Part shown: positions 25,019 through 42,067 of the stretch, piece by piece | Position numbering within the stretch: the first letter of the stretch is position 1 | Layout of the letters: each line of letters opens with the position of its first letter | Notes under the pieces: model-generated | The model's database searches: none | What the model was told of the DNA's origin: nothing | The model's input: only the letters and a program-made list of their open reading frames with translations | Made by a program: the position numbers and the translations under genes | From: Solirubrobacter phytolaccae | GTDB lineage: Bacteria; Actinomycetota; Thermoleophilia; Solirubrobacterales; Solirubrobacteraceae | Reading direction: 5' to 3' | NCBI RefSeq assembly: GCF_027587195.1 | Contig: NZ_JAPDDP010000025.1 | Coordinates: 1 to 64,000 of the forward strand | DNA length: 64,000 nt

Positions 25019-25654
25019 GTGCCCATGCTTCATCACGCCAGGCCCTACGTCGACGAGCTGCACTCAGAACGTGCCTCCCGTCGCGCGCTCCCCACCGACC
25101 CCGCCGAGCTCGAGCGCCTCGTCCGTGACGCGGCGGACGCCGACGACGCGGCGTGGAACACCCTCGTCCGCGGCTACGGACCGCGGCTGCACGCCGTCGC
25201 CCGCGCGCAGCGGGTCGGCAGCCACGACGCCGAGGACGTCGTCCAGATGACGTGGCTGAAGCTGTTCACGCACATCGGCACGGTGCGCGAGCCGGCCAAG
25301 CTCGGCGGCTACCTGCAGACGATCACGCGCCACACCACGTGGCGTCACGTGTCCGCGACCCGCCGTGAGCAGCTCGAGCCCGACGCGATCGACGCGGCGG
25401 TCGACGACCGCCAGCCCGGCCTCGAGGAGGGGCTCATCGCCGAGGAGCGCAGCGCGGTCCTGGCGGCGGCCCTGGAGTGCCTGCCCCCGCGCGAGAAGCG
25501 GCTGATGCAGATGCTCGTCCGCGAGCCCGAGCCGACCTACGCGGAGATCTCCGCCGAGCTCGGGATGCCGATCGGCAGCATCGGGCCGACCCGCGCCCGG
25601 TGCCTCGAGCGGTTGCGGCGTGACCCGCGGCTCGCGGCCGTCGCGCTCAGCTGA
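25019..25654 (+). CDS. ECF-type RNA polymerase sigma factor
   Basis: 211 residues from GTG 25019; the ATG two codons later (25025) is equally possible and both follow GGAG. Region 2 reads AAWNTLVRGYGPRLHAVAR and DAEDVVQMTWLKLF. Region 4 reads ALECLPPREKRLMQMLV, TYAEISAELGMPIGSIGPTRARCLERLRR. This is the usual two-region ECF layout. No anti-sigma factor or zinc-binding partner sits next to it. It ends eight bases inside the convergent phenazine-cluster tail gene, so a role in that cluster is possible but unproven. Confidence 0.88.
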   Translation: MPMLHHARPYVDELHSERASRRALPTDPAELERLVRDAADADDAAWNTLVRGYGPRLHAVARAQRVGSHDAEDVVQMTWLKLFTHIGTVREPAKLGGYLQTITRHTTWRHVSATRREQLEPDAIDAAVDDRQPGLEEGLIAEERSAVLAAALECLPPREKRLMQMLVREPEPTYAEISAELGMPIGSIGPTRARCLERLRRDPRLAAVALS

Positions 25655-25937
25655 CGAGTGGGCTCGTGGCGGCGGGCAATGCCGCCGCCACGAGCCGGAC
25701 CAGGTGGTCGACCGTGACCAGCGCGAGGATGCGCCGGCCACGGTCGAACCAGCCCGTCGGATCGAGTTCGAGGCCGAGTGCGCGCTCCACCGCCCGCACG
25801 ATCTCGAACAGCTCCTCACGGTCGGCGCCGTAGTCGTCGACCAGCGAGTTCTCCAGGCGCACCTCGTCCTCCAGCAGGCCGAGGTGGTCGCAGACCGCCG
25901 CTCGCACGGCGAGAAAGGGGCAGAGGAGTGCGCTCAT
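25647..25937 (-). CDS. Acyl-carrier-protein-like protein lacking the phosphopantetheine serine
   Basis: 96 residues from ATG 25937, overlapping the reductase stop (ATGA). Size and helix pattern match an ACP: LENSLVDDYGADREELFEIV followed by RAVERALGLELD and TVDHLVRLV. In a normal ACP the D-S-L motif carries 4'-phosphopantetheine on Ser; here that position reads Arg (GADREEL), so it should not be a covalent carrier. It is the last gene of the minus-strand phenazine tailoring operon, directly after the acyl reductase, and may be a structural or docking subunit. ACP-like identity is by eye. Confidence 0.55.
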   Translation of the reverse strand: MSALLCPFLAVRAAVCDHLGLLEDEVRLENSLVDDYGADREELFEIVRAVERALGLELDPTGWFDRGRRILALVTVDHLVRLVAAALPAATSPLVS

Positions 25938-27319
25938 GGCCGGCGGATCACGCTCTTGGTGCGCATCAGGAACTCAGCCAGGTAACCGTCGTGCGGCAGC
26001 TCGGGCGCCATGTGCAGGGTGCGCTCGTCGCCGACGTAGACGTTGGCGATCGTCGGCTCCTCCACGAGGGCGTCGACGAGCGCGTCATCGTCGGTGCAGA
26101 CGGTGAGGACGAGCGTGTCGCGCAGCGCGGCGGCGCCGTCGGCGCGCGTCCAGGGCGCGACCCACACGCACGGGAACGGCAGCTCGCACGCCGCCTGCGG
26201 CGCGTCCGCGCGTTCCAGCTCATGCACGGCCGGCCGCAGCACCGCGCTGCCGTCGCCGAGCGCGTCGACGATCCCGTCGCCGCCGAGCCACGCCTTCGCG
26301 TTCGCCGCGGCCGCGTCCAGGTAGACGGCGAACGTCTTGGCGGTCGCCAGCGGCTGGACGGGCAGCACGGCGTCGGCGTGCTCGGGCGGGAGGCTCGGGA
26401 GCGCGCTCAGGCGCTCGGCGAGCGCGGCGCACAGCGGTGCCGGGTCGCCCTCGACGAGGACGGTCGTCGCGTTCACGCAGCCGACCCCGCCGTGCCCGGC
26501 GATCGAGTCCACGATCGTGTCCAGGTGCTCGCGCCAGTCGGCGTCGCGGGTGATCAGGAGCTTCGAGCGGCCCGGGCCCTGCGTGACGACGCGCGGGTCG
26601 CGGCCGTACTTGGCGACGACGTCGGCGCCACCGTAGGCGAGGCCGAGGTCGGCGCCGCGCACGATCGCGTCGGCGCCGTCGTGGTTGGTCGGCAGCAGCG
26701 CGACCTGGTCGTCGCCGAACCCGGCGGCGCGCAGCGCGAGGATCAGCCGGTGCGGCGTGAACGGCTCGCGCTGGGACGGCCGGACCGCCACGCGGTAGCC
26801 GAGCGCGAGCGCCTCCGGCCACAGGCTGTGGGCGCCCGGGTGGTTGCCGGCCGCGAGCACCGCGAACACGTCGCCGCGGCGCGTCCAGACGGCGCGGCCG
26901 CTGCGGGTGAGCGGGTCGCGCCAGTCCGTCACGGCCCCGGCGGGCCGCGCGTGCTGGACCGTGTAGTGGGCCAGGCGCAGGCGGTTCGCCAGCGTGCCGA
27001 CGGTGTGCTCGACCGTCGTGATCGGGAGCCCGCCGACGCGGCTGACGGCGTACGCGTAGTCGGCGGGCGTGTGGCCGGCGATCGTCGCGTGCTCGAACAG
27101 GTCGGCGGCCTTCGTGAGCATGCCGACGCGCTCGTCGGCCGGGACCGTCGTGGCCTTGCGCAGCGCGGCCAGCGTGCGGTTCACGAACAGCGACGGCACG
27201 AGGCTCAGCTCCGCGACCACAGCGCCCGCCACGTCGGTGACGGGCAGCGGGATGTGGCTGACGAACAGGCCGTTGGCCCCGAGCGCCGGCAGGTCGACGG
27301 TGGGCGCGAGCGCCGTCAC
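25934..27319 (-). CDS. LuxC/EhpG-like acyl reductase (aldehyde dehydrogenase fold)
   Basis: 461 residues from GTG 27319, one base into the upstream stop (TAGTG). An aldehyde-dehydrogenase-like fold is indicated by VLAAGNHPGAHSLWPEALAL, the nucleotide-site-like GLAYGGADVVAKYG, and a candidate catalytic Cys in HGGVGCVNATTVLV. The family includes LuxC fatty-acyl reductase and, in griseoluteic acid biosynthesis of Pantoea, EhpG, which works with EhpF. In this cluster it is predicted to reduce an activated phenazine carboxylate to the aldehyde with NADPH. No luxAB is nearby, so a bioluminescence role is unlikely. Confidence 0.65.
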   Translation of the reverse strand: MTALAPTVDLPALGANGLFVSHIPLPVTDVAGAVVAELSLVPSLFVNRTLAALRKATTVPADERVGMLTKAADLFEHATIAGHTPADYAYAVSRVGGLPITTVEHTVGTLANRLRLAHYTVQHARPAGAVTDWRDPLTRSGRAVWTRRGDVFAVLAAGNHPGAHSLWPEALALGYRVAVRPSQREPFTPHRLILALRAAGFGDDQVALLPTNHDGADAIVRGADLGLAYGGADVVAKYGRDPRVVTQGPGRSKLLITRDADWREHLDTIVDSIAGHGGVGCVNATTVLVEGDPAPLCAALAERLSALPSLPPEHADAVLPVQPLATAKTFAVYLDAAAANAKAWLGGDGIVDALGDGSAVLRPAVHELERADAPQAACELPFPCVWVAPWTRADGAAALRDTLVLTVCTDDDALVDALVEEPTIANVYVGDERTLHMAPELPHDGYLAEFLMRTKSVIRRP

Positions 27320-28380
27320 TAGTACACCCCTTCGATCACGGCTTCCCGCTCGAAGGTCATGACCGGACGGAGGTTCGCGACCGAGTCGCCGATCTGCCCC
27401 GGCGCGGCCGGGACGCGGATCGCGAGGTCGCGCTCGAGGTTGTTGGGCAGCAGGAACGACCGGCTGACGTGGCTGACCACGACCTGGCCGCGTTCGCCGT
27501 AGGCGACCGTGTCGCCGGTGTCCGGGTCGACGACGTCGAAGGTGACGTACGGGGCGAGCGGGTCGAAGACGCACGAGGTGCCGGCCGGCAGGTGCGGACG
27601 CTCGCTCGCGACGCCGAGCATCATCGTGCTGCCGTAGTTGCCGTGCAGCGCGACGCCCGGGAACACCTCGGTCTTGTAGAGCTCACGCGAGTCGGGGTCG
27701 AGCTGCGTGCCGCCCCAGCTGATCAGGCGCACCTTCTCGTTGACGAGCGCGACGAGGTCATCGCGTAGCGCCAGGCGCTCGAGCAGCGGCGGCGTGATCA
27801 TCAGCACGCCGATGTCCTGCGTGCGCAGCACGTACTCGGCCTGCTCGATCAGGTGGTCGGCGTAGGCGCCGACGTCCGGGCCGCGGCCCTCCGCGATCAG
27901 CCGCTTGACCCAGCGCGGGTCGAGGTCGATCGTGAAGCCGTGGCCGCCGAAGCCGGCGGCGGAGCGGCGGAACAGCTCGCCGACGATGTGCGGCCCGGTG
28001 GGCACGACGCCCAGCCAGTCCTTGCCGGGCTCCAGGCCGTGTGCGGCGTAGTTCGCGCGCATCGCGGCGAGCATCCGGTCCAGCCAGTCGCGCATCAGCA
28101 CGACGCGCTTGGGCGCGCCGGTCGTGCCGCCGCTGTCGAAGAAGCCGACCACGTCGGGGTTCGGGCCGTAGCCGCGCGGGATCAGGTCGGCGACGCGCAC
28201 GTCGCGCAACTCGGCGGCCACGTTCGGGAACCGGCGCAGGTCCGCGTGGCTGCGCACGTCGGTGCGCGGGTCGAAGTCCAGCGTCGCGGCCCGCTCGAGC
28301 CAGAACGGCGAGCCGGTCTCGGGGTTGAAGTGCCACTCCATGGCGGCCTGGATGAACGTGTCGGGATCGGTCTCGGTCAT
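27319..28380 (-). CDS. EhpF/LuxE-like ATP-dependent acyl-activating enzyme (ANL superfamily)
   Basis: 353 residues from ATG 28380. The ANL phosphate-binding loop is FDSGGTTGAPKRVVLM near 86. Further family signs are ISWGGTQLDPDSRELY, the adenylate-site GNYGSTMMLG, and a C-terminal part shorter than in full acyl-CoA ligases. The enzyme should form an acyl-adenylate. EhpF of the Pantoea griseoluteic acid cluster, an ANL protein of about this size, activates phenazine dicarboxylate, so the same role is proposed. Coupling to the reductase downstream (one-base overlap) supports channelled activation and reduction. Confidence 0.65.
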   Translation of the reverse strand: MTETDPDTFIQAAMEWHFNPETGSPFWLERAATLDFDPRTDVRSHADLRRFPNVAAELRDVRVADLIPRGYGPNPDVVGFFDSGGTTGAPKRVVLMRDWLDRMLAAMRANYAAHGLEPGKDWLGVVPTGPHIVGELFRRSAAGFGGHGFTIDLDPRWVKRLIAEGRGPDVGAYADHLIEQAEYVLRTQDIGVLMITPPLLERLALRDDLVALVNEKVRLISWGGTQLDPDSRELYKTEVFPGVALHGNYGSTMMLGVASERPHLPAGTSCVFDPLAPYVTFDVVDPDTGDTVAYGERGQVVVSHVSRSFLLPNNLERDLAIRVPAAPGQIGDSVANLRPVMTFEREAVIEGVY

Positions 28381-29768
28381 CGGGTCTCCTCGGCGGCGTC
28401 GAGGCGCCGGACGGCGGGCACGGGGGCGCGGCGCCGGCGCCGGTTGGCGCGCAGCACGCGGCGGACGGTGGATGGGCGGAACAGCACGGTCGGCGGGGCG
28501 ACGAGCCAGCACACCTGCATGAAGCGCTCCGCGACGGCCCAGTCGTCCTCGGCGGCGCGCAGGACGCGGCCGATGTAGGCGTTGGCGAGCCGCGCCGGCA
28601 GCGGCCGCGGGCCTTCGACCTCGGGCAGCGCCAGGTCGCCGCCGACGGCGAGCTGCCAGGCGATGTCGGTGCGCTTGATCGCGGTCTTGAAGTAGCGCCG
28701 CTCGAGCTTGCGCGGGCCGGCGGCGAGGCAGTCGCGGAGCGCGATCGCCTGCAACGCCGCGGTCGACATCCCCTGCCCGTAGGCGGGGTTGAAGCTGCAC
28801 AGCGCGTCGCCGATCACGATCAGCCCGGTGGGCAGGCGCTTGACGCGGTCGTAGCGGCGCCGCACGCTGGCGCGGTAGCGGTGCGCGACCGGGTCGTCGA
28901 GCCACTCGGCGTCACGGACCGCGGCCATCGCGGAGTCCGGGAGCACGCCCTCGGCGAAGCGCAGGAACGCGTCGGGGTCCGTCGGCGGGTGGAAGCCCTT
29001 GTAGCCGATCAGGGTGAGGATGTGGTGGTCGTCCTCGGCGGCGAAGAACGTGCCGGTCGGACGGCCGGGTTCGGCGCCGACGATGATCACCTTCTCGCGG
29101 CCGAGCGCGCCCGGCCGCAGCCGCAGGTGGCGGCTGACGTAGCGGATGTCGACCTCGAGGCGCTCCTCGGGCGGCGCGGCGTAGCCCATCGCCGCCAGCC
29201 ACTTGGCGGTGCGGCCGGTGCGGCCGGTGGCGTCGACGACGAGGTCGGCGGAGAGCCGCTCCTCCTCGGCCCCGGCGCGCTGGACGGTCGCGCCGGTCAC
29301 GCAGTCTCCGTCGCGCTCGAGATTCACGAGCTTGCAGCGGTCGACGAGCTCGACGTTCGCCCGCTCGAGCAGCGCCGTGCGGATGCGCCACTCCAGGTAC
29401 GGACGGCTGGGCTGGTAGCTCGGGGTGGGACGCTCGTAGGGGCCGTCGGAGCAGAGCTTGTGCCCGCCGGGTGCGAAAGAGAGCTCGTCGGGCTCGTGCA
29501 GCGTCGTGACGCCGTCGGGCTCGAAGGTCTCCAGCAGGCCCGGGAACAGCTCGTCGACGACGCGGGTGCCGGCGACCAGGAGGCCGTGGGCGTGGCGGCC
29601 CTGGGGCACGCCCTGGCGCGGATCCGCCGTGTCCTGGAGCGCGTCGCGCTCGATCACGGTCACCCGCGTGAACGCGTCCGCGAGCACGCGCGCGGCCAGC
29701 AGGCCCGCCATGCTCGCCCCGAGGACCACGGCATGCTCACCGATGGTTGTCTGTCGCTGTGTGCTCAT
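28377..29768 (-). CDS. FAD-dependent monooxygenase (PHBH-like fold)
   Basis: 463 residues. The N-terminal dinucleotide motif is VVLGASMAGLLAARVLADAF (one Gly of GxGxxG is changed: GASMAG). The second FAD motif is LIVIGDALCSFNPAYGQGMS. DLVVDATGRTGR represents the usual DG-like region. It resembles class A flavin hydroxylases and tryptophan-halogenase-like relatives. In a phenazine cluster, hydroxylation of the ring (oxidative decarboxylation or ring OH) is the expected role; which position is not predictable. It is translationally coupled to the EhpF-like gene by ATGA. Confidence 0.75.
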   Translation of the reverse strand: MSTQRQTTIGEHAVVLGASMAGLLAARVLADAFTRVTVIERDALQDTADPRQGVPQGRHAHGLLVAGTRVVDELFPGLLETFEPDGVTTLHEPDELSFAPGGHKLCSDGPYERPTPSYQPSRPYLEWRIRTALLERANVELVDRCKLVNLERDGDCVTGATVQRAGAEEERLSADLVVDATGRTGRTAKWLAAMGYAAPPEERLEVDIRYVSRHLRLRPGALGREKVIIVGAEPGRPTGTFFAAEDDHHILTLIGYKGFHPPTDPDAFLRFAEGVLPDSAMAAVRDAEWLDDPVAHRYRASVRRRYDRVKRLPTGLIVIGDALCSFNPAYGQGMSTAALQAIALRDCLAAGPRKLERRYFKTAIKRTDIAWQLAVGGDLALPEVEGPRPLPARLANAYIGRVLRAAEDDWAVAERFMQVCWLVAPPTVLFRPSTVRRVLRANRRRRRAPVPAVRRLDAAEETR

Positions 29769-29794: not shown

Positions 29795-30169
29795 TCAGGC
29801 GAAGACGGGGCCGAGGTCGATGAAGATGCGGTAGTCGTCGATGCGCTCCGGCCCGCGCCGGAGGATCGACACCGCGGGGACGGTGATCTGGCTGTCGTCG
29901 AGCCGGGTGTAGGTCACCTCGGACTCCACGATCAGCGTGTCGCCGTCCTCCCAGACCTCGACGGTCTCGTGCTGCAGGGCCTTGATCATCTGGAAGAACC
30001 CGGAGAGGCCCTCGACGACGGCCGCCGGCCCGAAGATCGGGTCCTGGCTGCCGATCCGCATCCGCGCGTTCTCCGACAGCCTGGAGGCGAACCCCTCGGC
30101 GTTCTTGGCGTCGATGTCGGCGAAGATGCCGCTGATGAACGTGTCCGTGTCGGACTTGAGGCTGGTCAC
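29795..30169 (-). CDS. SnoaL/NTF2-like protein
   Basis: 124 residues from GTG 30169, which has a strong AAGGAG ribosome-binding site seven bases upstream. The NTF2-like cone fold is indicated by FISGIFADIDAKNAEGFASRL, EGLSGFFQMIKAL and ESEVTYTRLDDSQI. Such proteins are cyclases, isomerases or simple ligand binders. Here it probably acts on a phenazine intermediate or shields a product. PhzA/B, encoded on the other strand, has the same fold class but clearly different sequence. Confidence 0.55.
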   Translation of the reverse strand: MTSLKSDTDTFISGIFADIDAKNAEGFASRLSENARMRIGSQDPIFGPAAVVEGLSGFFQMIKALQHETVEVWEDGDTLIVESEVTYTRLDDSQITVPAVSILRRGPERIDDYRIFIDLGPVFA

Positions 30170-30202: not shown

Positions 30203-31009
30203 TTAAGCGGCGGCGGCCACGTCGGCGGCGATGCGGTAGTGCATCCACACGTGTGGCTCGCAGTAGTGGCCGCGATCGGCCTCGACGTCGAGCTCGACGG
30301 GCACGAGCCCGCCGGGCACCACGTAGCTGCCGCTCTGGGGGAACGACATGCCCGTCCACTGCTCCCACTGGGCGCGGGAGCCGGTGACGGTGGTCCAGGC
30401 CCGCGGGATCGCCACGGGCTCGGCGCCGAGCTGGTGATGGACCCGGATCCACGGGTCCTGCGACTTGCCGTCGCCGCGGCGCCACTGCACGTACGCCGCC
30501 ATGTCGCTCAGCGGGTAGCGCGCCTTGTGGGTCGGGCGGATCGGCGCGAACAGGTCAGGGAGGCCGCGCTCGGCGGCGATCCCCGCCATCGTCATCAGCA
30601 CCTGCCGGCTGCGTCCCTGGCCCTGGTGCTCGACGTGGACGACGGCCTGCAGCGCGCCGAGGGTGGTGGGCGGCAGCCCGGACGCACGCGTCGAGCGGGC
30701 GCGCTCGGCGAGTGCCGTCGCGCTGTCGGGCAGCGTGGCGACGTTGCCGTCCCAGCGGAACGGGACGCTGTTGCCGTGCGCGATGACGGCGCCCGAGTCG
30801 GGGTCCAGGAGCGCGAACTGGTACTCCGGGAACTCCGCGTAGATGCGCGGCCACTCGCGCTCGAACGCGCTGTGCAGCACGAAGGCCGGGTAGGCCTCCG
30901 AGTCGGCGGCGATCAGACCTTCGACGAGGTCGGGCCGCTCGGCCACCGTCACCACCCGGAAGGGAAGGTCACGGCGGCGCGACGTGAGGTTGGCTGTCTC
31001 TGGACTCAT
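30203..31009 (-). CDS. GNAT-family N-acyltransferase-like protein
   Basis: 268 residues from ATG 31009 (GTG 31012 is directly in front). The acetyl-CoA loop is recognisable as VVHVEHQGQGRSRQVL. Additional elements are a long N-terminal extension and a C-terminal domain with several Trp and His residues (DPWIRVHHQLGAEPVAIPRA). It may transfer an acyl group to a tailored phenazine or to a self-protection target; neither can be fixed from sequence. It lies 33 bases before the SnoaL-like gene on the same strand. Confidence 0.6.
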   Translation of the reverse strand: MSPETANLTSRRRDLPFRVVTVAERPDLVEGLIAADSEAYPAFVLHSAFEREWPRIYAEFPEYQFALLDPDSGAVIAHGNSVPFRWDGNVATLPDSATALAERARSTRASGLPPTTLGALQAVVHVEHQGQGRSRQVLMTMAGIAAERGLPDLFAPIRPTHKARYPLSDMAAYVQWRRGDGKSQDPWIRVHHQLGAEPVAIPRAWTTVTGSRAQWEQWTGMSFPQSGSYVVPGGLVPVELDVEADRGHYCEPHVWMHYRIAADVAAAA

Positions 31010-31057
31010 CACTTAACCAGAGACAACGTGAGTTTGAGGTAATACAAAGTTTCACCC

Positions 31058-32551
31058 TCAGGCGCGGTTGGTGTGAGCGCGCGGGTAGCCGGGCGCGATC
31101 GTCGCGAGCGCCCACGCCAAGCGTGAGCGCGTCTCGCCCGGGCGGATCACCTCGTCGACCGCCCCGAGCCGGGCCGCGGCCTGCGCGCCGAGGTGCTCGG
31201 CGGCGTAGCTCTCGGCCAGCCGGCGCTGCTCGGCGGCGGGGTCCGCGGCGGCGGCCAGCGCGCGCCGGTGCACGACGCCGACGGCCTGCTCAGCGCCCAT
31301 GATCCCGAGCTCGGCGCGACTCCACGCGAGGTACAGGTCGGCCCCGAGGTCCTTGGAGTTCATCGTGATGTACGCGCCGCCGAAGGCCTTGCGCAGCACG
31401 ACGGTGAACCGCGGGACGGTGGAGGCCGCGAACGCGTGCAGCAGCTCCGCGCCGTGGCGGATCACGCCGCGCGACTCCTGCGCGGAGCCGGGCAGGAACC
31501 CGGGCGTGTCCACAAGGACGACGAGCGGGATCCCGAACGCGTTGCAGGTGCGCACGAAGCGCGCGCCCTTCTGGGACGCGTCGGCGTCGATCACCCCGCC
31601 CAGGTGCTTGGGCTGGTTGGCGACGATGCCCACGGGACAGCCCTCGATCCGGGCGAAGGTGGTGACGAGGTTGGGCGCCCAGTCGACCGAGGACTCCAGC
31701 CGCGAGCCGGCGTCCACGATGCCGTCGATCGCCGCGCGCACGTCATAGGCGCGCCGGCTGTCGAGGGGGACGACGCCGCCGGGGTCCGGCCCACTGGGCT
31801 CGGCAGGCAGCGCGGTCGGGGGCGACTCCCACGCGTTCGCGGGTAAGTAGCTCAGCAGCTGGCGGACGAGGAAGATCGCGTCGATGTCGGTCGCGACGGT
31901 GAAGTGGCACACCCCGTTGCGCCCGTGCACCTTCGGCCCGCCGAGCTCCGCGGCGGTGACCTGCTCACCGGTCACCTCGCGCACGACCGCCGGGCCGGTG
32001 AGGAACATGCTCGCCGCCTCGGTCATCACCACGAAGTCGGTCAGCGCGGGCGAGTACGACCCGCCGCCGGCGGAGGTGCCGGTGATCACGGAGATCTGCG
32101 GCACCTGACCCGACAGCGCGACGTGCTCGGAGAAGATCCGCGCGTAGCCGTTGAGCGCCTCGAGCCCCTCCTGCATGCGCGCGCCGCCGGACTCCACGAA
32201 GCCGATCACCGGCACGCGGGTGCGGCGCGCGAGCTGCTGCACGCGCACGATCGTGTCGGCATGCTGGGCGCCGAGCGAGCCGCCGGCGTAGGCGGAGTCC
32301 TGCGCGAAGCCGAACACCGGGCGTCCTGCGATCCGCAGCGCGCCGCCGAGGACGCCGTCGCCCTCGCGCGCCTTCTCGCCCATCCGGATCGAGGTCACGC
32401 GCGAGCGGATCAGCTGGAGCGAGTTCTCGTCGCCCAGCAGGCGCAGGCGCTGCAGTGGCCGCAGCGCCTTCAGGTCGTCGCGGGGGATGTCGTCGGCGTC
32501 GGCGACGTGACCGTCGGCGATGGCGCTGAGGTCAGGGTGTGAGTCTTTCAC
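31058..32551 (-). CDS. Acyl-CoA carboxyltransferase (AccD/PccB-type beta subunit)
   Basis: 497 residues from GTG 32551. It has both halves of a carboxyltransferase: N-terminal FVESGGARMQEGLEALNGYA and TGTSAGGGSYSPAL, then C-terminal LVDTPGFLPGSAQESRG and RKAFGGAYITMNS. It would transfer CO2 from biotin to an acyl-CoA such as acetyl- or propionyl-CoA, but no biotin carboxylase or biotin carrier gene is in the window, so it must borrow one. A likely purpose is supplying malonyl- or methylmalonyl-CoA to the phenazine tailoring steps; carboxylation of another ligand is possible. Confidence 0.85.
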   Translation of the reverse strand: MKDSHPDLSAIADGHVADADDIPRDDLKALRPLQRLRLLGDENSLQLIRSRVTSIRMGEKAREGDGVLGGALRIAGRPVFGFAQDSAYAGGSLGAQHADTIVRVQQLARRTRVPVIGFVESGGARMQEGLEALNGYARIFSEHVALSGQVPQISVITGTSAGGGSYSPALTDFVVMTEAASMFLTGPAVVREVTGEQVTAAELGGPKVHGRNGVCHFTVATDIDAIFLVRQLLSYLPANAWESPPTALPAEPSGPDPGGVVPLDSRRAYDVRAAIDGIVDAGSRLESSVDWAPNLVTTFARIEGCPVGIVANQPKHLGGVIDADASQKGARFVRTCNAFGIPLVVLVDTPGFLPGSAQESRGVIRHGAELLHAFAASTVPRFTVVLRKAFGGAYITMNSKDLGADLYLAWSRAELGIMGAEQAVGVVHRRALAAAADPAAEQRRLAESYAAEHLGAQAAARLGAVDEVIRPGETRSRLAWALATIAPGYPRAHTNRA

Positions 32552-32555
32552 TGTG

Positions 32556-33134
32556 TCATCCGGTCATGGCGGTGGGTGTGTCGTCGACGGAGGTCAACGC
32601 GGGCGCCACCGCCAGGCGGGCGGCGACGCTCACCGCGCGCTGCGCCTGGTAGCGGGCGGCGTCCAGCGCGAGCGGCCCGGGCTGTTGGCCCAGGCCGACG
32701 ATGTGCGAGGCGCCGTGGGGGTTGCTCGACTGCAGGTGCACGGGCACCGGGATCGGCGCCGTGAAGCCGGGCGGGACGATGATCCCGCCCCAGTGGCTGA
32801 AGATCGTGGAGAAGTTGACCAGGGTCGTCTCCTGGCCGCCGTGCGTGCTGGCGCTGGCGACGAACGCGCCGTACACCTTCTCGGCGAGCTTGCCGGCGAG
32901 CCAGAGCTTGCCGGTGCCGTCGATGAAGCGGTTCAGCTCAGCCGCGATCGTGCCGTAGTGGCTGGGCGTGCCGAACAGGACGACGTCGGCCCACTCGAGG
33001 TCGGCGTTGGTGGCGTCGGCGACCGGCAGCAGCCGCACCTCGGCCCCGGCGTCGGTGGCACCCGCGGCGGCGGCTTCGGCGAGCGCCTGCACGTTGCCGG
33101 TCACGCTGTAGTAGATCACTGTCACTCGGGTCAT
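32556..33134 (-). CDS. WrbA-like flavodoxin/NAD(P)H:quinone oxidoreductase
   Basis: 192 residues from ATG 33134. The FMN phosphate loop is IYYSVTGNVQALAEAA. Other family motifs are FGTPSHYGTIAAELNRFID, SASTHGGQETTL and a loop HGASHI. WrbA-type proteins reduce quinones by two electrons. In this cluster the enzyme may reduce redox-active phenazines, protecting the producer, or reduce a biosynthetic intermediate. It is the first gene of the minus-strand arm, facing the phz core operon across a shared promoter region. Confidence 0.8.
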   Translation of the reverse strand: MTRVTVIYYSVTGNVQALAEAAAAGATDAGAEVRLLPVADATNADLEWADVVLFGTPSHYGTIAAELNRFIDGTGKLWLAGKLAEKVYGAFVASASTHGGQETTLVNFSTIFSHWGGIIVPPGFTAPIPVPVHLQSSNPHGASHIVGLGQQPGPLALDAARYQAQRAVSVAARLAVAPALTSVDDTPTAMTG

Positions 33135-33244: not shown

Positions 33245-33721
33245 ATGGCCGTTGACACAGTGAAGTCCGCGGACGCGGTTCGCGATCACAACCGCGCGCT
33301 CGTCGCGCAGTACATGAACACCCGTGGCCAGGCGCGTCTGGAGCGCCATCTTCTGTTCACGGAAGACGGCGTCGGCGGGCTGTGGACGACCGAGAGCGGT
33401 GAGCCGATCGTCATCCGCGGGCGCGACCGCCTGGGCGAGCACGCCGTGTGGTCACTGCGCTGCTTCCCCGACTGGGTGTGGACCAACGTCGAGATCTTCG
33501 ACACGCAGGACCCGGAGCGCTTCTGGGTGGAGTGTGACGGTGAAGGGCGGATCGTCTACCCCGGCTATCCCGAGGGTCACTACCGCAACCACTTCCTGCA
33601 CGCGTTCGAGTTCGAGGGCGGGTTGATCAAGCGCCAGCGCGAGTTCATGAACCCGTGCCAGCAGTTCCGGGCGCTGGGACTCACCGTCCCCACCGTCCGC
33701 CGCGAGGGCATTCCCACCTAG
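33245..33721 (+). CDS. phzB: PhzA/PhzB-type phenazine biosynthesis protein
   Basis: 158 residues from ATG 33245, matching the normal PhzA/B length; a start at 33215 would add ten residues. Family hallmarks are DHNRALVAQYMNTRGQARLERHLLFTEDG, FPDWVW, YPGYPEGHYRNHFLHAFEFEGGLIK and EFMNPCQQFRALG. The protein is a SnoaL/NTF2-fold dimer that catalyses condensation of two aminocyclohexenone units into the tricyclic ring precursor in phenazine formation. Only one PhzA/B copy is present, as in many actinobacteria, unlike the duplicated phzAB of Pseudomonas. It opens the plus-strand core operon. Confidence 0.93.
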   Translation: MAVDTVKSADAVRDHNRALVAQYMNTRGQARLERHLLFTEDGVGGLWTTESGEPIVIRGRDRLGEHAVWSLRCFPDWVWTNVEIFDTQDPERFWVECDGEGRIVYPGYPEGHYRNHFLHAFEFEGGLIKRQREFMNPCQQFRALGLTVPTVRREGIPT

Positions 33722-33736
33722 GCACGGAGAGCAGCA

Positions 33737-34927
33737 GTGAGAACCCAAGCCGCAGACCTCATCGTCGACATCGAACGCTGCGAGGCGCTTCAGCAGCCCC
33801 TATGGGAGGACCACGGGCACGTCCGCCGGGTGCGGGCGATCCTCGCCGCCCGTCCCCCGCTGGTCGTCGCCGAGCAGGTGGACGCGCTGCGCGAGCTGCT
33901 GGCGCAGGTCGCCGCGGGCGAGGCGCTGGTCGTGCAGGCCGGTGACTGCTCGGAGGACCCGGCGGACAACACCGCCGCGATCGTGGCCCGCAAGGCCGCC
34001 GTCCTCGACCTGCTCGCCGGCACGCTCAAGCTCGCCACGCAGCAGCCCGTCGTGCGGGTGGGGCGGATCGCCGGCCAGTTCGCCAAGCCGCGCTCGAAGC
34101 CGTATGAGCAGGTGGGCGCGGTCGAGCTGCCCGCGTACCGCGGGCACATGGTCAACGACCCGGACCCGGAGCTGGGCCGGCAGGCCGACCCGCTGCGGAT
34201 CCTGGCCGGCTACATGGCCGCCGGCGGGATGATGGAGCATCTCGGCTGGCGCGGCGCGGGCCGCCCGGGCCCGCGCATCGAGGCCCCGGTCTGGACCAGC
34301 CACGAGGCGCTGCTGCTCGACTACGAGCTGCCGATGATCCGGACGCTCGCCGACGGGCGCCGCTGGCTCTCCTCTACGCACTGGCCGTGGGTCGGCGACC
34401 GCACCCGCCAGCTCGACGGCGCCCACGTGGCGCTGCTGGCCGCGATCAGCAACCCGGTGGCGTGCAAGGTCGGCCCGAGCCTGGCCGCGGACGAGCTCGT
34501 CCGCCTGTGCGAGCGGCTCGATCCCCACCGCACGCCCGGCCGGCTGACGCTGATCGCGCGGATGGGCGCGGGCACGGTGCTCGAGCGGCTGCCTTCGCTG
34601 CTGGCGGCGGTGCGCCGCGCCGGGCACCCGGTGGTCTGGCTGTGCGACCCGATGCACGGGAACACGATCGCGACGCCGTCGGGCTTCAAGACCCGGCTGG
34701 TCGGCACGATCGCCCAGGAGGTCCGCGAGTTCCGGCAGGCCGTGGACGCGGCGGGCGCGGTCGCGGGCGGCCTGCATCTGGAGACCACGCCCGACGACGT
34801 CACCGAATGCGCCGACGACGCGTCCGCGCTCGGCTCGGTCGGCGAGCGCTACACGACGTTGTGCGACCCGCGGCTCACGCCGTGGCAGGCGGTCGCCGCG
34901 GTGTTGGCCTGGACGGCGGGCGCATGA
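33737..34927 (+). CDS. phzC: Class II DAHP synthase, phenazine pathway (PhzC)
   Basis: 396 residues from GTG 33737, preceded by a GGAG. Class II DAHP synthase motifs seen are [10 protein letters not shown] (metal-site Cys), [40 protein letters not shown] and [10 protein letters not shown]. The enzyme joins phosphoenolpyruvate and erythrose 4-phosphate to feed the shikimate pathway. The pathway-specific copy boosts chorismate supply. It overlaps phzD by four bases (ATGA). Confidence 0.93.
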
Positions 34928-35547
34928 GTGGCCTGCCGACGATCGCGCCGTACGCGCTCCCCACCCGCGAGCGCCTGCCGGAGAACCACGCCCGCTGGAC
35001 GGTCGCGCCCGAGCGCGCGGTCCTGCTCGTCCACGACATGCAGGACTACTTCGTCCGCGCGCTGCCCGATCCGCTGCGCACGAGCGTCGTGGCCAACGCG
35101 GCGCGGCTGCGCGAGGGCTGCGCCGCGCGGGGCGTCAAGGTCGCGTACACCGCGCAGCCCGGCCGGATGAGCACGGGCCAGCGCGGGCTGCTGATGGACT
35201 TCTGGGGCGCGGGCATGCGGACCGACGCCGCCGACCGCGAGGTCGTCGGTCCGCTCGCCCCCGCCCCCGGTGACTGGCGGCTGGTCAAGTGGCGCTACAG
35301 CGCGTTCTTCCGGTCCGACCTCGGAGCGCGCATGCGCGCGTGCGGCCGCGACCAGCTGATCCTGTGTGGCGTCTACGCCCACGTCGGGCTGCTGGCCACG
35401 GCGCTGGAGGCGTTCGCCAACGACATCCAGGTGTTCCTGGTCGCCGACGCGGTCGGGGACTTCTCCGAGGCCGATCAGCAGCTCGCGCTCGACTACGTCG
35501 CCCGCCGCTGCGGCATGGTCCTCACCTGCGACGAGGTGCTCGGATGA
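34924..35547 (+). CDS. phzD: Isochorismatase-like hydrolase PhzD
   Basis: 207 residues. The catalytic Asp is D38 in [10 protein letters not shown], the same number as in Pseudomonas PhzD. The Lys in LVKWRYSAF and the loop [13 protein letters not shown], with Gly where cysteine hydrolases have Cys, are also typical. It hydrolyses the vinyl ether of 2-amino-2-desoxyisochorismate to trans-2,3-dihydro-3-hydroxyanthranilate (DHHA) plus pyruvate. Four-base overlaps link it to phzC and phzE. Confidence 0.95.
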
Positions 35548-37382
35548 GCGATCTGCTCGACCGGATCCTGGCGTTGGAGGAGGGTGCGTTCGCCGTGCTG
35601 CACCGCCCGCACAGCGGCTGCGCGGACACCGTCGACGTGCTCGCGGGCGACGCCGTCGAGCTGGCGTCGCTCGCCGACATCCCGCTCGCCGAGGACGTCC
35701 TCGGCCCCGGCCACGACGTGCTCGTGGTCGTCCCCTACCGCCAGATCTCCGAGCGCGGCTTCACCGCCCGCGACGACGGCGCGCCGCTGATCGCCATGGC
35801 CGTCGCCGACCAGCAGCAGCTCCCGCTCGGCGACGTCCTCACCCGCATCCCGGACGTGTCGACCGCGCTGCAGGGCGGCGCCTTCGACTGCGACGACGCC
35901 CGCTACGCCGCCACCGTGCGGCGCATCATCGCCGAGGAGATCGGCACCGGCGAGGGCGCGAACTTCGTGATCAAGCGCTCGTTCGTGGCCGACATCGGCG
36001 ACTACTCGCCGCTCGGCGCCCTCGCGCTCTTCCGCCGGCTGCTGCTGCGCGAGCAGGGCGCGTACTGGACGTTCGTGATCCACACGGGTGAGCGGACCCT
36101 GGTCGGCGCCACGCCCGAGCGCCACATCACGCTCAACGGCGGGACCGCGGTGATGAACCCGATCAGCGGCACCTACCGCTACCCGGGCACCGGGCCGACG
36201 CTCGAGGGCGTCAGCGAGTTCCTCAGCGACACCAAGGAGGCCGACGAGCTGTACATGGTCGTCGACGAGGAGCTGAAGATGATGGCCCGCATCTGCGACT
36301 CCGGCGGCCGCGTGGTCGGCCCGTTCCTGCGGGAGATGGCGAGCCTCGCGCACACGGAGTACTTCATCGAGGGCGAGACCTCGATCGACGTGCGCGAGAC
36401 CCTGCGCGAGACGATGTTCGCGCCGACCGTGACCGGCAGCCCGCTCGAGAGCGCGACGCGGGTCATCCACCGGCACGAGCCCGACGGGCGCGGCTACTAC
36501 AGCGGCGTCGCGGCGCTGATCGGCCGGGACGCGGCGGGCGCGCGCACGCTGGACTCGGCGATCATGATCCGCACCGCAGACATCGACCCGGCCGGGCGGA
36601 TGCGGCTGAGCGTCGGCGCGACGCTCGTGCGCCACTCCGACCCGGAGGCCGAGGTCGAGGAGACGCGCGCGAAGGCCGCGGGCATGCTGCGCACGTTCGA
36701 GCCGGTGAAGTTCTCCGAGCATCCGGACGTGCAGTCGGCGCTGCGGCGGCGCAACACGGGGATCGCGGGGTTCTGGCTCAACGGCGGGCGCGCGGCTTCG
36801 CGGGCGGTGCCGTCGCTGGCCACGCGCACGGCGCTCGTGATCGACGCCGAGGACACGTTCACCGCGATGCTCGACCACCAGCTGCGCTCGCTCGGCTTGA
36901 CGGTCACGGTCCGGCGCTTCGACGAGCCGTACGCGCTCGACGGGCACGACCTCGTCGTGATGGGGCCCGGGCCGGGCGACCCGCGCGCGCTGCGTGATCC
37001 CAAGATCGCCCACCTGCACAAGGCGGTGGGCGTGCTGCTGGCCTCGCGCCGGCCGTTCCTGGCCGTCTGCCTCAGCCATCAGGTGCTGTCGCTGCGCCTC
37101 GGGCTGCCGCTCCTCCGGCGCGACGTGCCCAACCAGGGCGTGGCGCGGGAGATCGACCTGTTCGGCGAGCCGCGGCGAGTCGGCTTCTACAACACGTTCT
37201 GCGCGCGGAGCGACGCGCCGTGGGTGGGCGACGTCGAGGTCGCGCGCGACCCGGCGACCGGCGAGGTGCACGCGCTGCGCGGGCCGACGTTCGCGTCGAT
37301 GCAGTTCCACCCTGAGTCGCTGCTCACGGTCGACGGGCCGAAGATCGTCGGCGCGTTGCTCGAGGGGGTGCTCGGGCGATGA
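35544..37382 (+). CDS. phzE: 2-Amino-2-desoxyisochorismate synthase PhzE (fused TrpE/TrpG-like)
   Basis: 612 residues. The N-terminal chorismate-utilising domain (1-400) shows [38 protein letters not shown], and the acidic [17 protein letters not shown]. The C-terminal class I glutamine amidotransferase domain (about 430-612) shows the oxyanion [10 protein letters not shown], the nucleophile Cys in [14 protein letters not shown] and the His/Glu in QFHPES. It converts chorismate plus glutamine to ADIC, the committing step. Both active sites look intact. The gene overlaps phzD and the following small gene. Confidence 0.95.
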
Positions 37383-37636
37383 TCGTCGACATCGCGTTCT
37401 GGGACGTCGACGACGTGGACGCGCTGCACGCGGCGACCGCGGTCGAGGAATGGCGCGGGATCGACGGGCTGCGGCTGAAGCTGTGGATCGTGGACCGCGA
37501 ACGCGGACGCTGGGGCGCGATCATGCTCTGGGACGGGGAGCGGCCGGCGTCGTTGCCGCCCAACCGCGCCGCGGAGCTGATCGGCCGTCCCGCCGATCAC
37601 CGGCTGACGTTCGACGTCGCCGAGGTCGCGCCATGA
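37379..37636 (+). CDS. Small protein of dimeric alpha/beta-barrel type between phzE and phzF
   Basis: 85 residues; ATG 37379 overlaps the phzE stop and the stop overlaps the phzF start, so it is a real operon member. The sequence (IDGLRLKLWIVDRERGRWGAI, then MLWDGERPASLPP) resembles YdhR-like or antibiotic-biosynthesis-monooxygenase-like ferredoxin folds, but no catalytic residue can be named. It is not one of the standard phz core proteins. Possible roles are a small oxygenase or a cyclisation helper acting on the unstable intermediates. Confidence 0.6.
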   Translation: MIVDIAFWDVDDVDALHAATAVEEWRGIDGLRLKLWIVDRERGRWGAIMLWDGERPASLPPNRAAELIGRPADHRLTFDVAEVAP

Positions 37637-38472
37637 CCCGCGCCTACACCGTGGTGGACGCGTTCGCCCGCCGGCCGCTCGAGGGCAACCCGGTGGCCGT
37701 GTTCGTCGCGGCCGACGGGCTGAGCGGCGAGCTGATGCAGCGGATCGCGCGTGAGCTGAACCTGTCCGAGACGACGTTCGTGCTCGCCGCCGAGGGCGAC
37801 GGAGACTTCCGCGTGCGGATCTTCACCCCGGTCAACGAGCTGCCGTTCGCCGGGCACCCGACGCTGGGCACGGTCGTCGCGCTGCAGGCGATCCACGGCT
37901 TCGATCGTGTGCGGTTGGAGACCGCGATGGGGCTCATCGCCTGCACGATCGACGGCGACCGTGTCGAGATGCGCCAGCCGCTCCCGACGTGGCGGGCGTT
38001 CGACGAGCCCGACGCGTTGCTCGCGGCGCTGGGCGTCGCGGCGTCCGTGACCCCGGTGGAGATCTACCGCAACGGTCCGCGCCACGTCTTCGTCGGCGTG
38101 GAGAGCGTGGACGCGCTGTCGGCGCTGCACCCGGATCACCGCGCGCTGTCGCGGTTCGAGGACGTGGCCGTGAACTGCTTCGCCGGTGCGGGCCAGGCGT
38201 GGCGCGCCCGGATGTTCTCGCCCGCATACGGCGTCGTCGAGGACGCCGCCACCGGCTCGGCCGCCGGCCCGCTCGCCGTCCACCTCGCCCGCCACGGCCT
38301 CGCGTCCTGGGGTGCCGATCACGAGATCGTCCAGGGCGTGGAGATCGGCCGCCGTTCCGTCATGCACGCGCGGGCCGAAGGTGCGGGCGACCGCGTGCTC
38401 GATGTCGCCGTCGGCGGCCACGCCGTCGTGGCCGGGCGCGGCGAGCTCTACCTCCAGGAGATCGCACGATGA
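37633..38472 (+). CDS. phzF: DHHA isomerase PhzF
   Basis: 279 residues with the diaminopimelate-epimerase fold. Typical signs are VVDAFARRPLEGNPVAV, the catalytic Glu E46 in LNLSETTFVL (E45 in Pseudomonas), FTPVNELPFAGHPTLGTV, and EDAATGSAAGPLAVHLARHG. PhzF isomerises DHHA to the ketone that condenses to the phenazine skeleton. Position and four-base overlaps fit the core operon. Confidence 0.95.
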   Translation: MTRAYTVVDAFARRPLEGNPVAVFVAADGLSGELMQRIARELNLSETTFVLAAEGDGDFRVRIFTPVNELPFAGHPTLGTVVALQAIHGFDRVRLETAMGLIACTIDGDRVEMRQPLPTWRAFDEPDALLAALGVAASVTPVEIYRNGPRHVFVGVESVDALSALHPDHRALSRFEDVAVNCFAGAGQAWRARMFSPAYGVVEDAATGSAAGPLAVHLARHGLASWGADHEIVQGVEIGRRSVMHARAEGAGDRVLDVAVGGHAVVAGRGELYLQEIAR

Positions 38473-39107
38473 CCGCAGCGCGGTTCGAGACCCTCACCGC
38501 GGGGGTCGAGCTCGAGTTCCCCGAGTACGAGACGCCGCCGGCCGAGCCGCTCGGCCTGGTCCGTGCGTGGGTCGCGCGGGCGTGCGAGCTGGGCGTCCGC
38601 GAGCCCAAGGCGCTCGCGCTGGCCACCGCCGACGCGTTCGGCCGTCCCTCCAGCCGCATCGTCACGATCATCGCCATCACCGACGCGGGGCTGCTGTTCG
38701 CCAGCCACGCCTGCAGCCAGAAGGGCCGCGAGCTGTCCGTGAACCCGTGGGCCTCGGGCCTCCTCTACTGGCGCGAGACCGGCCAGCAGCTGATCGTCTC
38801 CGGCCCGGTCGTGCCGCTCTCCGGTGGGGAGTCCGACGACCTCTGGTTCGCCCGCCCGGTCGCCTTGCACCCCGCGACGACCGTCTCACGCCAGAGCGAG
38901 CCGCTGCACGACGTGGCGGCGATGCGCGCGGAGATCACCTCCCTCGAGCCGTGCGCCGCCCCGCTCCCCCGCCCGGAGCGCTTCACCGGCTACCGGCTCG
39001 AGCCGGCGACCGTCGAGTTCTGGTGCGCGAGCGGCGACCGCCTGCACCGGCGGCTGCAATACACGCGCGTGCGCGGCGGCTGGGAGACCACGCGCCTGCA
39101 GCCCTAG
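38469..39107 (+). CDS. phzG: FMN-dependent oxidase PhzG
   Basis: 212 residues of the pyridoxamine-5'-phosphate oxidase-like split barrel. Family signs include ALALATADAFGRPSSRIVTII, FASHACSQKGRELSVNPWASGLLYW and FWCASGDRLHRRLQYTR. PhzG oxidises the hexahydrophenazine dicarboxylate to the aromatic dihydro form, completing the core. It is the last gene of the operon and shares a CTAG with the convergent gene's stop. Confidence 0.93.
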   Translation: MTAARFETLTAGVELEFPEYETPPAEPLGLVRAWVARACELGVREPKALALATADAFGRPSSRIVTIIAITDAGLLFASHACSQKGRELSVNPWASGLLYWRETGQQLIVSGPVVPLSGGESDDLWFARPVALHPATTVSRQSEPLHDVAAMRAEITSLEPCAAPLPRPERFTGYRLEPATVEFWCASGDRLHRRLQYTRVRGGWETTRLQP

Positions 39108-40964: not shown

Positions 40965-41046
40965 AACCACTACTGGACACTTGCGGCGGTGAAGTCAAGT
41001 TGAGAGGCTTTCTCCGTGCACTCCCGTCGCAAGTCGAGTAGTGGTT
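40965..41046. repeat. Imperfect long inverted repeat before the TIR-GAF gene
   Basis: AACCACTACTGGACacTTGCG at 40965-40985 and CGCAAGTCGAGTAGTGGTT at 41028-41046 are inverted complements apart from a two-base bulge and one mismatch, with a 42-base spacer. The spacer holds a small GAGAGGCTTTCTC hairpin. It could be a structured leader RNA, a terminator for the aldolase gene, or a protein-binding site. No homologue is recognised. Confidence 0.6.
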
Positions 41047-41057
41047 GACCGTCAACC
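41043..41057. promoter_or_regulatory. Perfect palindrome GGTTGAC-C-GTCAACC at the TIR-GAF start
   Basis: Seven-base arms flank one base; the palindrome covers the TTG start (41045) and ends just before a GGAGG (41058-41062). It is an operator candidate, or a hairpin that could block translation initiation. Confidence 0.5.
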
Positions 41058-42067
41058 GGAGGTCTTCGCAGCGCGTGTTCATCGGCTCGTCGTCCCAATC
41101 GGGATTGCCGGTGGCTGACGAGCTCCAGGCGCTGCTCTCGCCCTATTGTCGGCCGACGATCTGGAATCAAGGCGTTTTCGTCCTAAGCCGGGGCACGCTC
41201 GAGGCGCTGGAGCACGCCGCCGACGACTACGACTTCGCCGTGTTGGTGATGGCGGCGGACGACGAGATCACGCAGGCCGGCAACACGATGCCGAGCGTCC
41301 GCGACAACGTCCTCTTCGAGCTCGGCCTGTTCACCGGAGCGCTGGGATCGCGTCGTACGTTCATGGTGTGGTGCCGCGATGATCCGCCCAAGATCCCGAC
41401 CGACCTCGCCGGGATCACGGCGGCCACCTATCCCGCGCCTGGCCGCGACGACCTTGCCTCTGCGCTCGGCCCCGTAGCGCTGCAGATCCGAAAGGCCATG
41501 GACCTCGCCGGCCCGCGTCGACCGCTGCTGGTCGGCAAGGAACGGACGATCGAGGCGCTGCTGCAGCGAGACATCCGAGCACTCGGCAAAGAGCTCCGGA
41601 TCAACGAGGATGACATCGGCGTGCATCTCTGGCTGCTCGACGAAGACGCACGACCGCCGGTCATGCAGCGTGTGCTGCGGGTCAACAGCTCGTCCGCGCC
41701 CGCGACGGCTTCGTTCTCGTCCTGGAGGCAAGGCCGGGGTCTCGTCGGAACCGCGTGGGAGCAGGACGACGACGTCTGGGCCGATCTCGGCGCCGCGCCT
41801 CTGGCCGGGCTCAGCCGGGCCGATTTCGAAGCGTTGCCGGCGGCGGATCAGCTCGGCATGGACTGGGAGATCTACGAGCGGAGCCGCCGGTACTTCAGGC
41901 TCGTTTACGCCGTTCCGATGCAGGACCGTACGTTCACTCCCGTCGGCACGTTGAGCGTGAACATCGATCGTGACGTCACCGCACCACAGCACGAGCTGGT
42001 CAAGACCGTCCGCAGTGCTGCCAGAGGCATGGCGCATACGTGCCGGCTGGTCCTCGACCTCGCCTGA
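41045..42067 (+). CDS. TIR-like (Cap12/PF10137) nucleotide-binding domain plus GAF domain protein
   Basis: 340 residues from TTG 41045; a GTG at 41075 follows a GGAGG but would begin within the first beta-strand. Residues 10-125 match the predicted nucleotide-binding TIR-like family of CBASS/Pycsar effectors: RVFIGSSSQSGLPVADELQ, YDFAVLVMAADDEI and RDNVLFELGLFTGALGSRRTFMV. The conserved Glu in LFELG is the candidate NAD-hydrolysing residue. The C-terminal half (about 160-335) looks like a GAF sensor domain (LWLLDEDARPPVM, GRGLVGTAWEQ, VYAVPMQDRTFTPVGTLSVNID). A cyclic-nucleotide synthase is absent nearby, so the trigger is probably sensed by GAF or by the WD40 partner. Confidence 0.7.
   Translation: MTVNRRSSQRVFIGSSSQSGLPVADELQALLSPYCRPTIWNQGVFVLSRGTLEALEHAADDYDFAVLVMAADDEITQAGNTMPSVRDNVLFELGLFTGALGSRRTFMVWCRDDPPKIPTDLAGITAATYPAPGRDDLASALGPVALQIRKAMDLAGPRRPLLVGKERTIEALLQRDIRALGKELRINEDDIGVHLWLLDEDARPPVMQRVLRVNSSSAPATASFSSWRQGRGLVGTAWEQDDDVWADLGAAPLAGLSRADFEALPAADQLGMDWEIYERSRRYFRLVYAVPMQDRTFTPVGTLSVNIDRDVTAPQHELVKTVRSAARGMAHTCRLVLDLA

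Follow-up and report, generated by a model that had tools for sequence, protein, structure and literature searches.

We analysed a 64,000-nucleotide stretch of the Solirubrobacter phytolaccae genome (contig NZ_JAPDDP010000025.1; hereafter the window), in which one arm of a phenazine cluster closes with three genes encoding an EhpF-type acyl-adenylating enzyme, an EhpG-type reductase and a small protein similar to an acyl carrier protein (ACP). The EhpF/EhpG pair is of a known kind that is rare in this lineage, and the ACP-like gene, which lacks the codon for the phosphopantetheine serine, is real and odd, making the locus a variant. We consider it rather probable that the phenazine cluster as a whole was acquired horizontally, that the EhpF/EhpG pair carries out a carrier-free reduction, and that the ACP-like protein is a dispensable accessory or a relic.

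We propose that this cluster is of the lomofungin/griseoluteic type and that its Phz enzymes would produce phenazine-1,6-dicarboxylate, one carboxyl of which, the likely substrate of EhpF, would be activated as acyl-AMP. ANL enzymes use their C-terminal domain for thioester formation; since EhpF has no such domain, it would hand the acyl group over to Cys281 of the reductase as a thioester, a transfer suggested by the families to which the two proteins belong. A hydride from NAD(P)H would then release the aldehyde, presumably a 6-formyl phenazine, and a flavoenzyme similar to Lomo10 would hydroxylate the ring. The route would work without a carrier, and the ACP-like protein, presumably a specialised ACP native to the host lineage and now without its serine, translationally coupled behind the reductase, would be dispensable to it.

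The EhpF/EhpG-type pair and its phenazine setting

The window EhpF is homologous over its full length to the solved EhpF of Pantoea, its best PDB matches being 3l2k and 3hgu (residues 5-353; phmmer E 6.6e-85 for 3l2k), with 3hgv as a further EhpF structure, and no LuxE family occurs among its Pfam matches. A scan of one genome per species yielded at least 585 EhpF relatives, the best 80 of which (55-74% identical) were taken with their loci, and 91 EhpF rows entered the alignment and the tree. Across these rows the P-loop SGGTTGAPK and the E-R-D residues are conserved, and every protein (91/91) ends after the adenylation core, 350-356 amino acids from the aligned start, without a C-terminal ANL domain. 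Calling a locus phenazine-linked when its fetched flanks contain two or more core phz families, we found that the window EhpF is 57-74% identical to the EhpFs of phenazine-linked actinobacterial loci, including those of Streptomyces griseoluteus and Streptomyces lomondensis. In the tree it falls inside a 30-row set (support 98/99) of which 24 rows, the window counted, are phenazine-linked, its nearest position inside that set being without resolution.

The reductase is, judging from its sequence, a member of the aldehyde dehydrogenase superfamily and not a LuxC by the Pfam cut-off, with 13.8 bits to PF05893 against the 21 required. It combines this membership with a position adjoining EhpF and with a catalytic cysteine, Cys281, kept in all 89 rows that have a residue at this column (the 90th row has a gap), as befits an EhpG. 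It shares 34% identity with the protein encoded beside EhpF in Pantoea, 40% with its counterpart on an Escherichia coli plasmid and 58% with that of Burkholderia ubonensis.

Together with the Lomo10 homologue upstream, the three genes follow one another closely: the monooxygenase and EhpF genes overlap by 4 bases, the GTG start of the reductase lies within the EhpF stop codon (TAGTG, a 1-base overlap), and the ACP-like start overlaps the reductase stop by 4 bases (ATGA). Because their reading frames overlap, the four genes look co-translated. All three genes on which the preliminary description had focused proved intact on the minus strand at the positions given there (25647-28380), and the opposite arm (33245-39107, plus strand) holds phzB, C, D, E, F and G together, as expected of a phenazine cluster. 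The description of the pair as EhpF/EhpG-like is thus borne out by the EhpF structures, the Aldedh match and the phz setting, and its proposal of a carboxyl-to-aldehyde reduction of a phenazine is supported as the best reading of the pair, because the pair lies inside a phz cluster.

Tight coupling of EhpF and reductase is usual, not universal. A reductase homologue lies on the same strand as EhpF in 88 of the 89 loci, besides that of the window, in which both genes were found, all of the best 80 included, L045 showing opposite strands; the L041 contig ends before any reductase, the two genes are far apart (about 1.5 kb) in L051 and L058, and the reductase lies upstream of EhpF in L087, L090, L092 and L095. 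Phenazine linkage applies to 27 of the 80 loci, S. griseoluteus (L056) and S. lomondensis (L065) included, the other 53 showing at most one such family in the fetched flanks. Flavin-type monooxygenase (FMO) homologues occur in 10 of the 80. Absent from all 80 are the SnoaL-like gene of the window and its gene at 30203..31012 (minus strand), the product of which we take to resemble a GNAT-type transferase. EhpF occurs in one of seven genomes of the genus, and PhzA/B scores 281 bits in the window genome; three more of the 146 family genomes match it, at 21-26 bits only.

Several of these loci deserve mention in their own right. In L099 (9893-17736, Streptomyces), as in L096 and L112, an EhpF/EhpG-type pair sits beside a serine-bearing ACP without a phz core, and in L099, the one locus of the three in which those genes were read, also beside MaoC, ketosynthase and ketoreductase genes; from these three loci, the EhpF/EhpG module seems to serve other pathways too. 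EhpF-type genes without core phz genes in the fetched flanks also occur in the same class and in Ktedonobacteria (L039, L040, L041, L042, L105, L111 and L114-L116), accompanied by a reductase where the contig shows it. The E. coli plasmid NZ_CP076707.1 carries a phz operon with EhpF/EhpG, a non-ribosomal peptide synthetase and a phosphopantetheinyl transferase annotated as ClbA.

Carriers were surveyed within the fetched flanks using an ordinary-ACP hidden Markov model built from 51 rows and a regular expression for motifs of the peptidyl carrier protein (PCP) type, a combination that would miss carriers of other types or lying farther away. No carrier was detected in this way in 18 of the 27 phenazine-linked loci, among them those of S. 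griseoluteus and S. lomondensis. Along with the universal lack of the C-terminal domain and the invariant cysteine, this upholds the earlier expectation that the route does not use a normal carrier, which it probably does not need.

An ACP-like protein with arginine in place of serine

The ACP-like protein scores 21.7 bits against PF00550, narrowly over the cut-off of 20.8, and phmmer aligned it to ACPs of the PDB, 7pdi being the best (E 2e-5). In the alignments with 7e42 and 2n57, 'ddygadree' stands opposite 'DDLGADSLD' and Arg40 opposite the serine; in that with 7pdi, Arg40 stands opposite the modified residue X. The start of helix II therefore presents Arg40 at the column of the phosphopantetheine serine, in agreement with the preliminary description, which had noticed this arginine. 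The guanine-plus-cytosine fractions at the three codon positions (0.79/0.43/0.89) are those of a real gene, and a base-calling error at the serine is unlikely, since two residues are changed (D-R-E versus D-S-L) and D-R recurs in a second species (see below).

An AlphaFold2 model built on a five-row alignment (mean pLDDT 77.9, pTM 0.70) has a helix at 40-54 starting at Arg40. The list returned by Foldseek for this model is filled by ACPs, the nine best rows being carriers or carrier complexes (E 1e-3 to 5e-3), and no match reaches E 0.001; VIA-align gave Z 13.6 to the ACP 2kw2 and about 10-12 to many others, values under about 13 being potentially weak for helical bundles. A non-ACP fold would have contradicted the earlier identification; model, Foldseek and VIA-align all point to an ACP fold. 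Because Arg40 replaces the serine, a protein of this predicted fold should be unable to bear phosphopantetheine and so to act as a normal carrier.

A search of 146 genomes of the family with the ACP-like protein returned one other match, in another species of the same genus (genome G438). This homologue, of 128 amino acids, also reads SLVDDYGADRDEL and is Arg-bearing, the stretch S-L-V-D-D-Y-G-A-D-R being common to both proteins; its genome has no EhpF and no PhzA/B. In its 3' part, the G438 frame shares about 200 bases with a transporter-like frame on the other strand, a reason for caution, and the gene could be decaying. No close homologue was found at any of the 80 related EhpF/EhpG loci or at 10 others (phmmer on open reading frames; best E 1.9), and we therefore reject the idea that such a gene routinely belongs to EhpF/EhpG operons. 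BLAST gave the label 'ACPx' once, in L053; phmmer did not bear it out, and we treated it as noise. A tblastn search of plasmids returned just one weak ordinary ACP.

A two-row profile (A3) was also run against genomes of the class (399), the phylum (396) and the order (232), in overlapping sets with at most 10 or 18 candidates scored per genome; 14 matches of the class scan and 20 of the phylum scan, lacking fetched loci, were left out of the site reading. Every match with a readable attachment site has serine there, except the window and G438, which the order-level scan found again after the single-protein search; the site is not visible in L186, which matched by chance within a long frame, and in L230, at a contig edge. 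The closest profile relatives besides G438 are actinobacterial specialised type II ACPs (L191/L219, L162, L169 and L229), which are longer or fused, have the C-terminal helix region in common with the window protein and, unlike it, keep the serine; the L219 ACP adjoins a phosphopantetheinyl transferase and ketosynthases. Because the sole Arg-bearing relative found belongs to a genome without EhpF or PhzA/B, and the actinobacterial ACP kin keep their serine, we take the window protein for a specialised ACP belonging to the host lineage, which would have lost its serine earlier than the phenazine cluster arrived or independently of that event. In a search of open-licence PMC literature, no phenazine cluster with an ACP lacking the serine came up, a result that weakly suggests that none is known.

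The lack of a close homologue at the 80 loci and the G438 relative speak against the ACP-like gene being part of the route, as the preliminary description had grouped it, and for these reasons the protein is probably an accessory or a relic that stays outside the reduction chemistry. On present evidence, gene overlap alone ties the gene to the pathway.

Alternative roles for the pair and the ACP-like protein

Several observations weigh against a carrier-free route with a dispensable ACP-like protein. The ACP-like gene shares four bases with the end of the reductase gene, an arrangement that usually points to a functional connection, and both the predicted intact ACP fold and the D-R motif common to a second species argue against plain decay of the gene. 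Furthermore, carriers are common companions of EhpF/EhpG in other branches: at least 8 of the 27 phenazine-linked loci have a small serine-bearing carrier near the pair (PCP type in L050, L051, L058, L060, L063, L071 and L076; ACP type in L113), plus one weak case (L061, E 0.45), and the carriers near other pairs all retain their serine. Three rows of the regular expression were judged spurious and not counted (L051 and L057, both on the minus strand, and L106, inside the reductase). Lastly, to judge from gene content, the product of the window cluster cannot be lomofungin itself, because the cluster has no methyltransferase and has extra SnoaL-like and GNAT-like genes.

The overlap, the intact fold with helix II beginning at Arg40, the coding periodicity and the conservation of S-L-V-D-D-Y-G-A-D-R would all suit a working non-carrier subunit, i.e., a pseudo-ACP docking EhpF and the reductase and helping to pass the acyl-AMP, with Arg40 at the site of the phosphopantetheine phosphate. 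We nevertheless hold such a subunit to be unlikely, as EhpF/EhpG pairs elsewhere do without it, none of the 80 other pairs having a homologue beside it, and as the second Arg-bearing protein belongs to a genome without EhpF. Little credence can likewise be given to its most specific form, a non-covalent ACP-fold adaptor, co-translated with the reductase and channelling acyl-AMP, in which Arg40 replaces the phosphate of the lost arm; if true, a carrier fold would here have taken on a new use as a scaffold for carboxylate reduction, the founding case of its kind. More generally, should the serine-less protein prove active, it would show that an ACP fold can serve a biosynthetic pathway even when the prosthetic arm is missing.

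It is also conceivable, at a low probability, that the ACP-like protein is native to the genus as a regulatory partner of the neighbouring sigma factor, and that the phenazine cluster landed beside that pair of genes. The sigma gene (plus strand) is convergent with the ACP-like gene, their stop ends overlapping by 8 bases, and both Arg-bearing genes directly adjoin an ECF-like sigma gene (the window; L135 and L136), the one of G438 in a genome without EhpF or PhzA/B. Sigma genes abound, however, Sigma70_r2 having 110 matches in one of the two genomes and 104 in the other, so that chance adjacency is estimated at about 3% per gene; moreover, the arrangement is convergent in the window and divergent in G438, the two sigma factors do not pair as closest relatives, and such a neighbour is missing at 21 of 23 related sigma loci. 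The adjacency may thus be due to chance. As to the pair itself, the 53 loci that are not phenazine-linked by our definition, and the ACP, ketosynthase, MaoC and ketoreductase genes around the L099 pair, could suggest activation of another acid, such as a fatty or benzoic acid, which comparable pairs outside phenazine clusters presumably carry out; this is very improbable for the window pair, which lies inside a phz cluster, belongs to a strongly phenazine-linked tree set and adjoins a Lomo10 homologue. Under the carrier-free explanation that we prefer, the locus extends the formyl-phenazine clusters of the lomofungin/griseoluteic type to a lineage with a strong PhzA/B match in only one of 146 genomes, and it offers a natural setting in which the need of EhpF/EhpG reduction for any carrier can be cleanly tested.

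Cluster layout and comparison with known systems

Table 1. Genes and sites of the phenazine cluster and its border in the window.
Feature	Position	Strand	Evidence
EhpF-type acyl-adenylating enzyme, 353 amino acids, adenylation core only	27319..28380	-	PDB EhpF match, conserved motifs
EhpG-type reductase, aldehyde dehydrogenase superfamily, 461 amino acids, Cys281	25934..27319	-	Pfam Aldedh 59 bits
ACP-like protein, 96 amino acids, Arg40 at phosphopantetheine serine column	25647..25937	-	PF00550 21.7 bits, PDB ACPs, AlphaFold, Foldseek
Codons 39-40 (Asp-Arg) of ACP-like gene; Asp-Ser in carriers	25818..25823	-	Read from sequence; helix 40-54 in model
Flavin monooxygenase, Lomo10 homologue	28377..29768	-	FAD_binding_3; 59.7% to L065 gene
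SnoaL-like protein	29795..30169	-	Pfam SnoaL_2 40.7 bits
Protein without Pfam match	30203..31012	-	No family found
Acyl-CoA carboxyltransferase subunit	31058..32551	-	Carboxyl_trans 467 bits
WrbA-like flavodoxin / quinone oxidoreductase	32556..33134	-	NCBIfam 123 bits, below cut-off 141; internal ATG start
PhzA/B	33245..33721	+	PHZA_PHZB E 1.5e-84
PhzC-like DAHP synthase	33737..34927	+	BLAST orthologues in phz-linked loci; 45% to annotated DAHP synthase
PhzD (isochorismatase family)	34924..35547	+	54% to B. ubonensis isochorismatase-family gene
PhzE	35544..37382	+	55% to B. ubonensis anthranilate synthase family gene
Small conserved phenazine-cluster protein	37379..37636	+	Homologues in 24/80 EhpF loci; also in phz operons of B. 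ubonensis and an E. coli plasmid
PhzF	37633..38472	+	59% to B. ubonensis PhzF
PhzG (PNP-oxidase family)	38469..39107	+	47% to B. ubonensis pyridoxal 5'-phosphate synthase family gene
Sigma-70 family (ECF-like) sigma factor	25019..25654	+	Sigma70_r2 42 bits, Sigma70_r4 26 bits

The carboxyltransferase of the minus-strand arm has homologues (48-49%) in 3 of the 80 loci only (L096, L099 and L112), none of them phenazine-linked. Beyond the cluster, 41045-42067 encodes a protein with a TIR domain that belongs to the CAP12/Pycsar effector family and may act against phages. In the plus-strand arm, the small conserved protein is of a kind that PMC11278526 flags as perhaps belonging to the core phenazine proteins, with unknown function.

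Among the systems with which the pair can be compared, LuxC/LuxE follow the same logic of an acyl-AMP-forming enzyme and a cysteine acyl reductase, and differ in that the window reductase falls under the PF05893 cut-off and EhpF has no LuxE match in Pfam. GriC/GriD of grixazone biosynthesis, as described in PMC10179220, are an AMP-binding protein and a reductase that turn an aryl carboxylate (aminohydroxybenzoate) into an aldehyde; the likeness to the window pair is one of function, the sequence link being to proteins annotated as 'arylcarboxylate reductase', 35-36% identical to the window EhpF. The D-alanylgriseoluteic acid cluster of Pantoea agglomerans has in common with the window an EhpF homologous over its full length (41% identity) and without C-terminal domain, an adjoining aldehyde dehydrogenase superfamily reductase (34%) and phz genes around them. 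It has no serine-less ACP-like gene, and its serine-bearing carrier lies further on beside an AMP-binding gene.

The lomofungin genes of S. lomondensis JCM 4866 are closer, with identities of 70% for EhpF, 69% for the reductase and 59.7% for the flavin monooxygenase. We identify L065 as the lomofungin locus because it holds both published lomo10 primers without mismatch. Lomo10 is the C-7 hydroxylase of lomofungin, and its window homologue lies directly upstream of EhpF. According to PMC4549113, deletion of lomo10 gave 1-carbomethoxy-6-formyl-4,9-dihydroxy-phenazine, and the cluster table lists lomo15 (EsmB1-like) adjoining lomo16 (aldehyde dehydrogenase). Genes for a methyltransferase and an acyl-CoA dehydrogenase belong to the S. 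lomondensis locus; in their place the window has the carboxyltransferase, SnoaL-like and GNAT-like genes, and it has the ACP-like gene besides. The preliminary description took griseoluteic acid as its model; because a Lomo10-like gene is present, lomofungin is at least as good a model for the window cluster.

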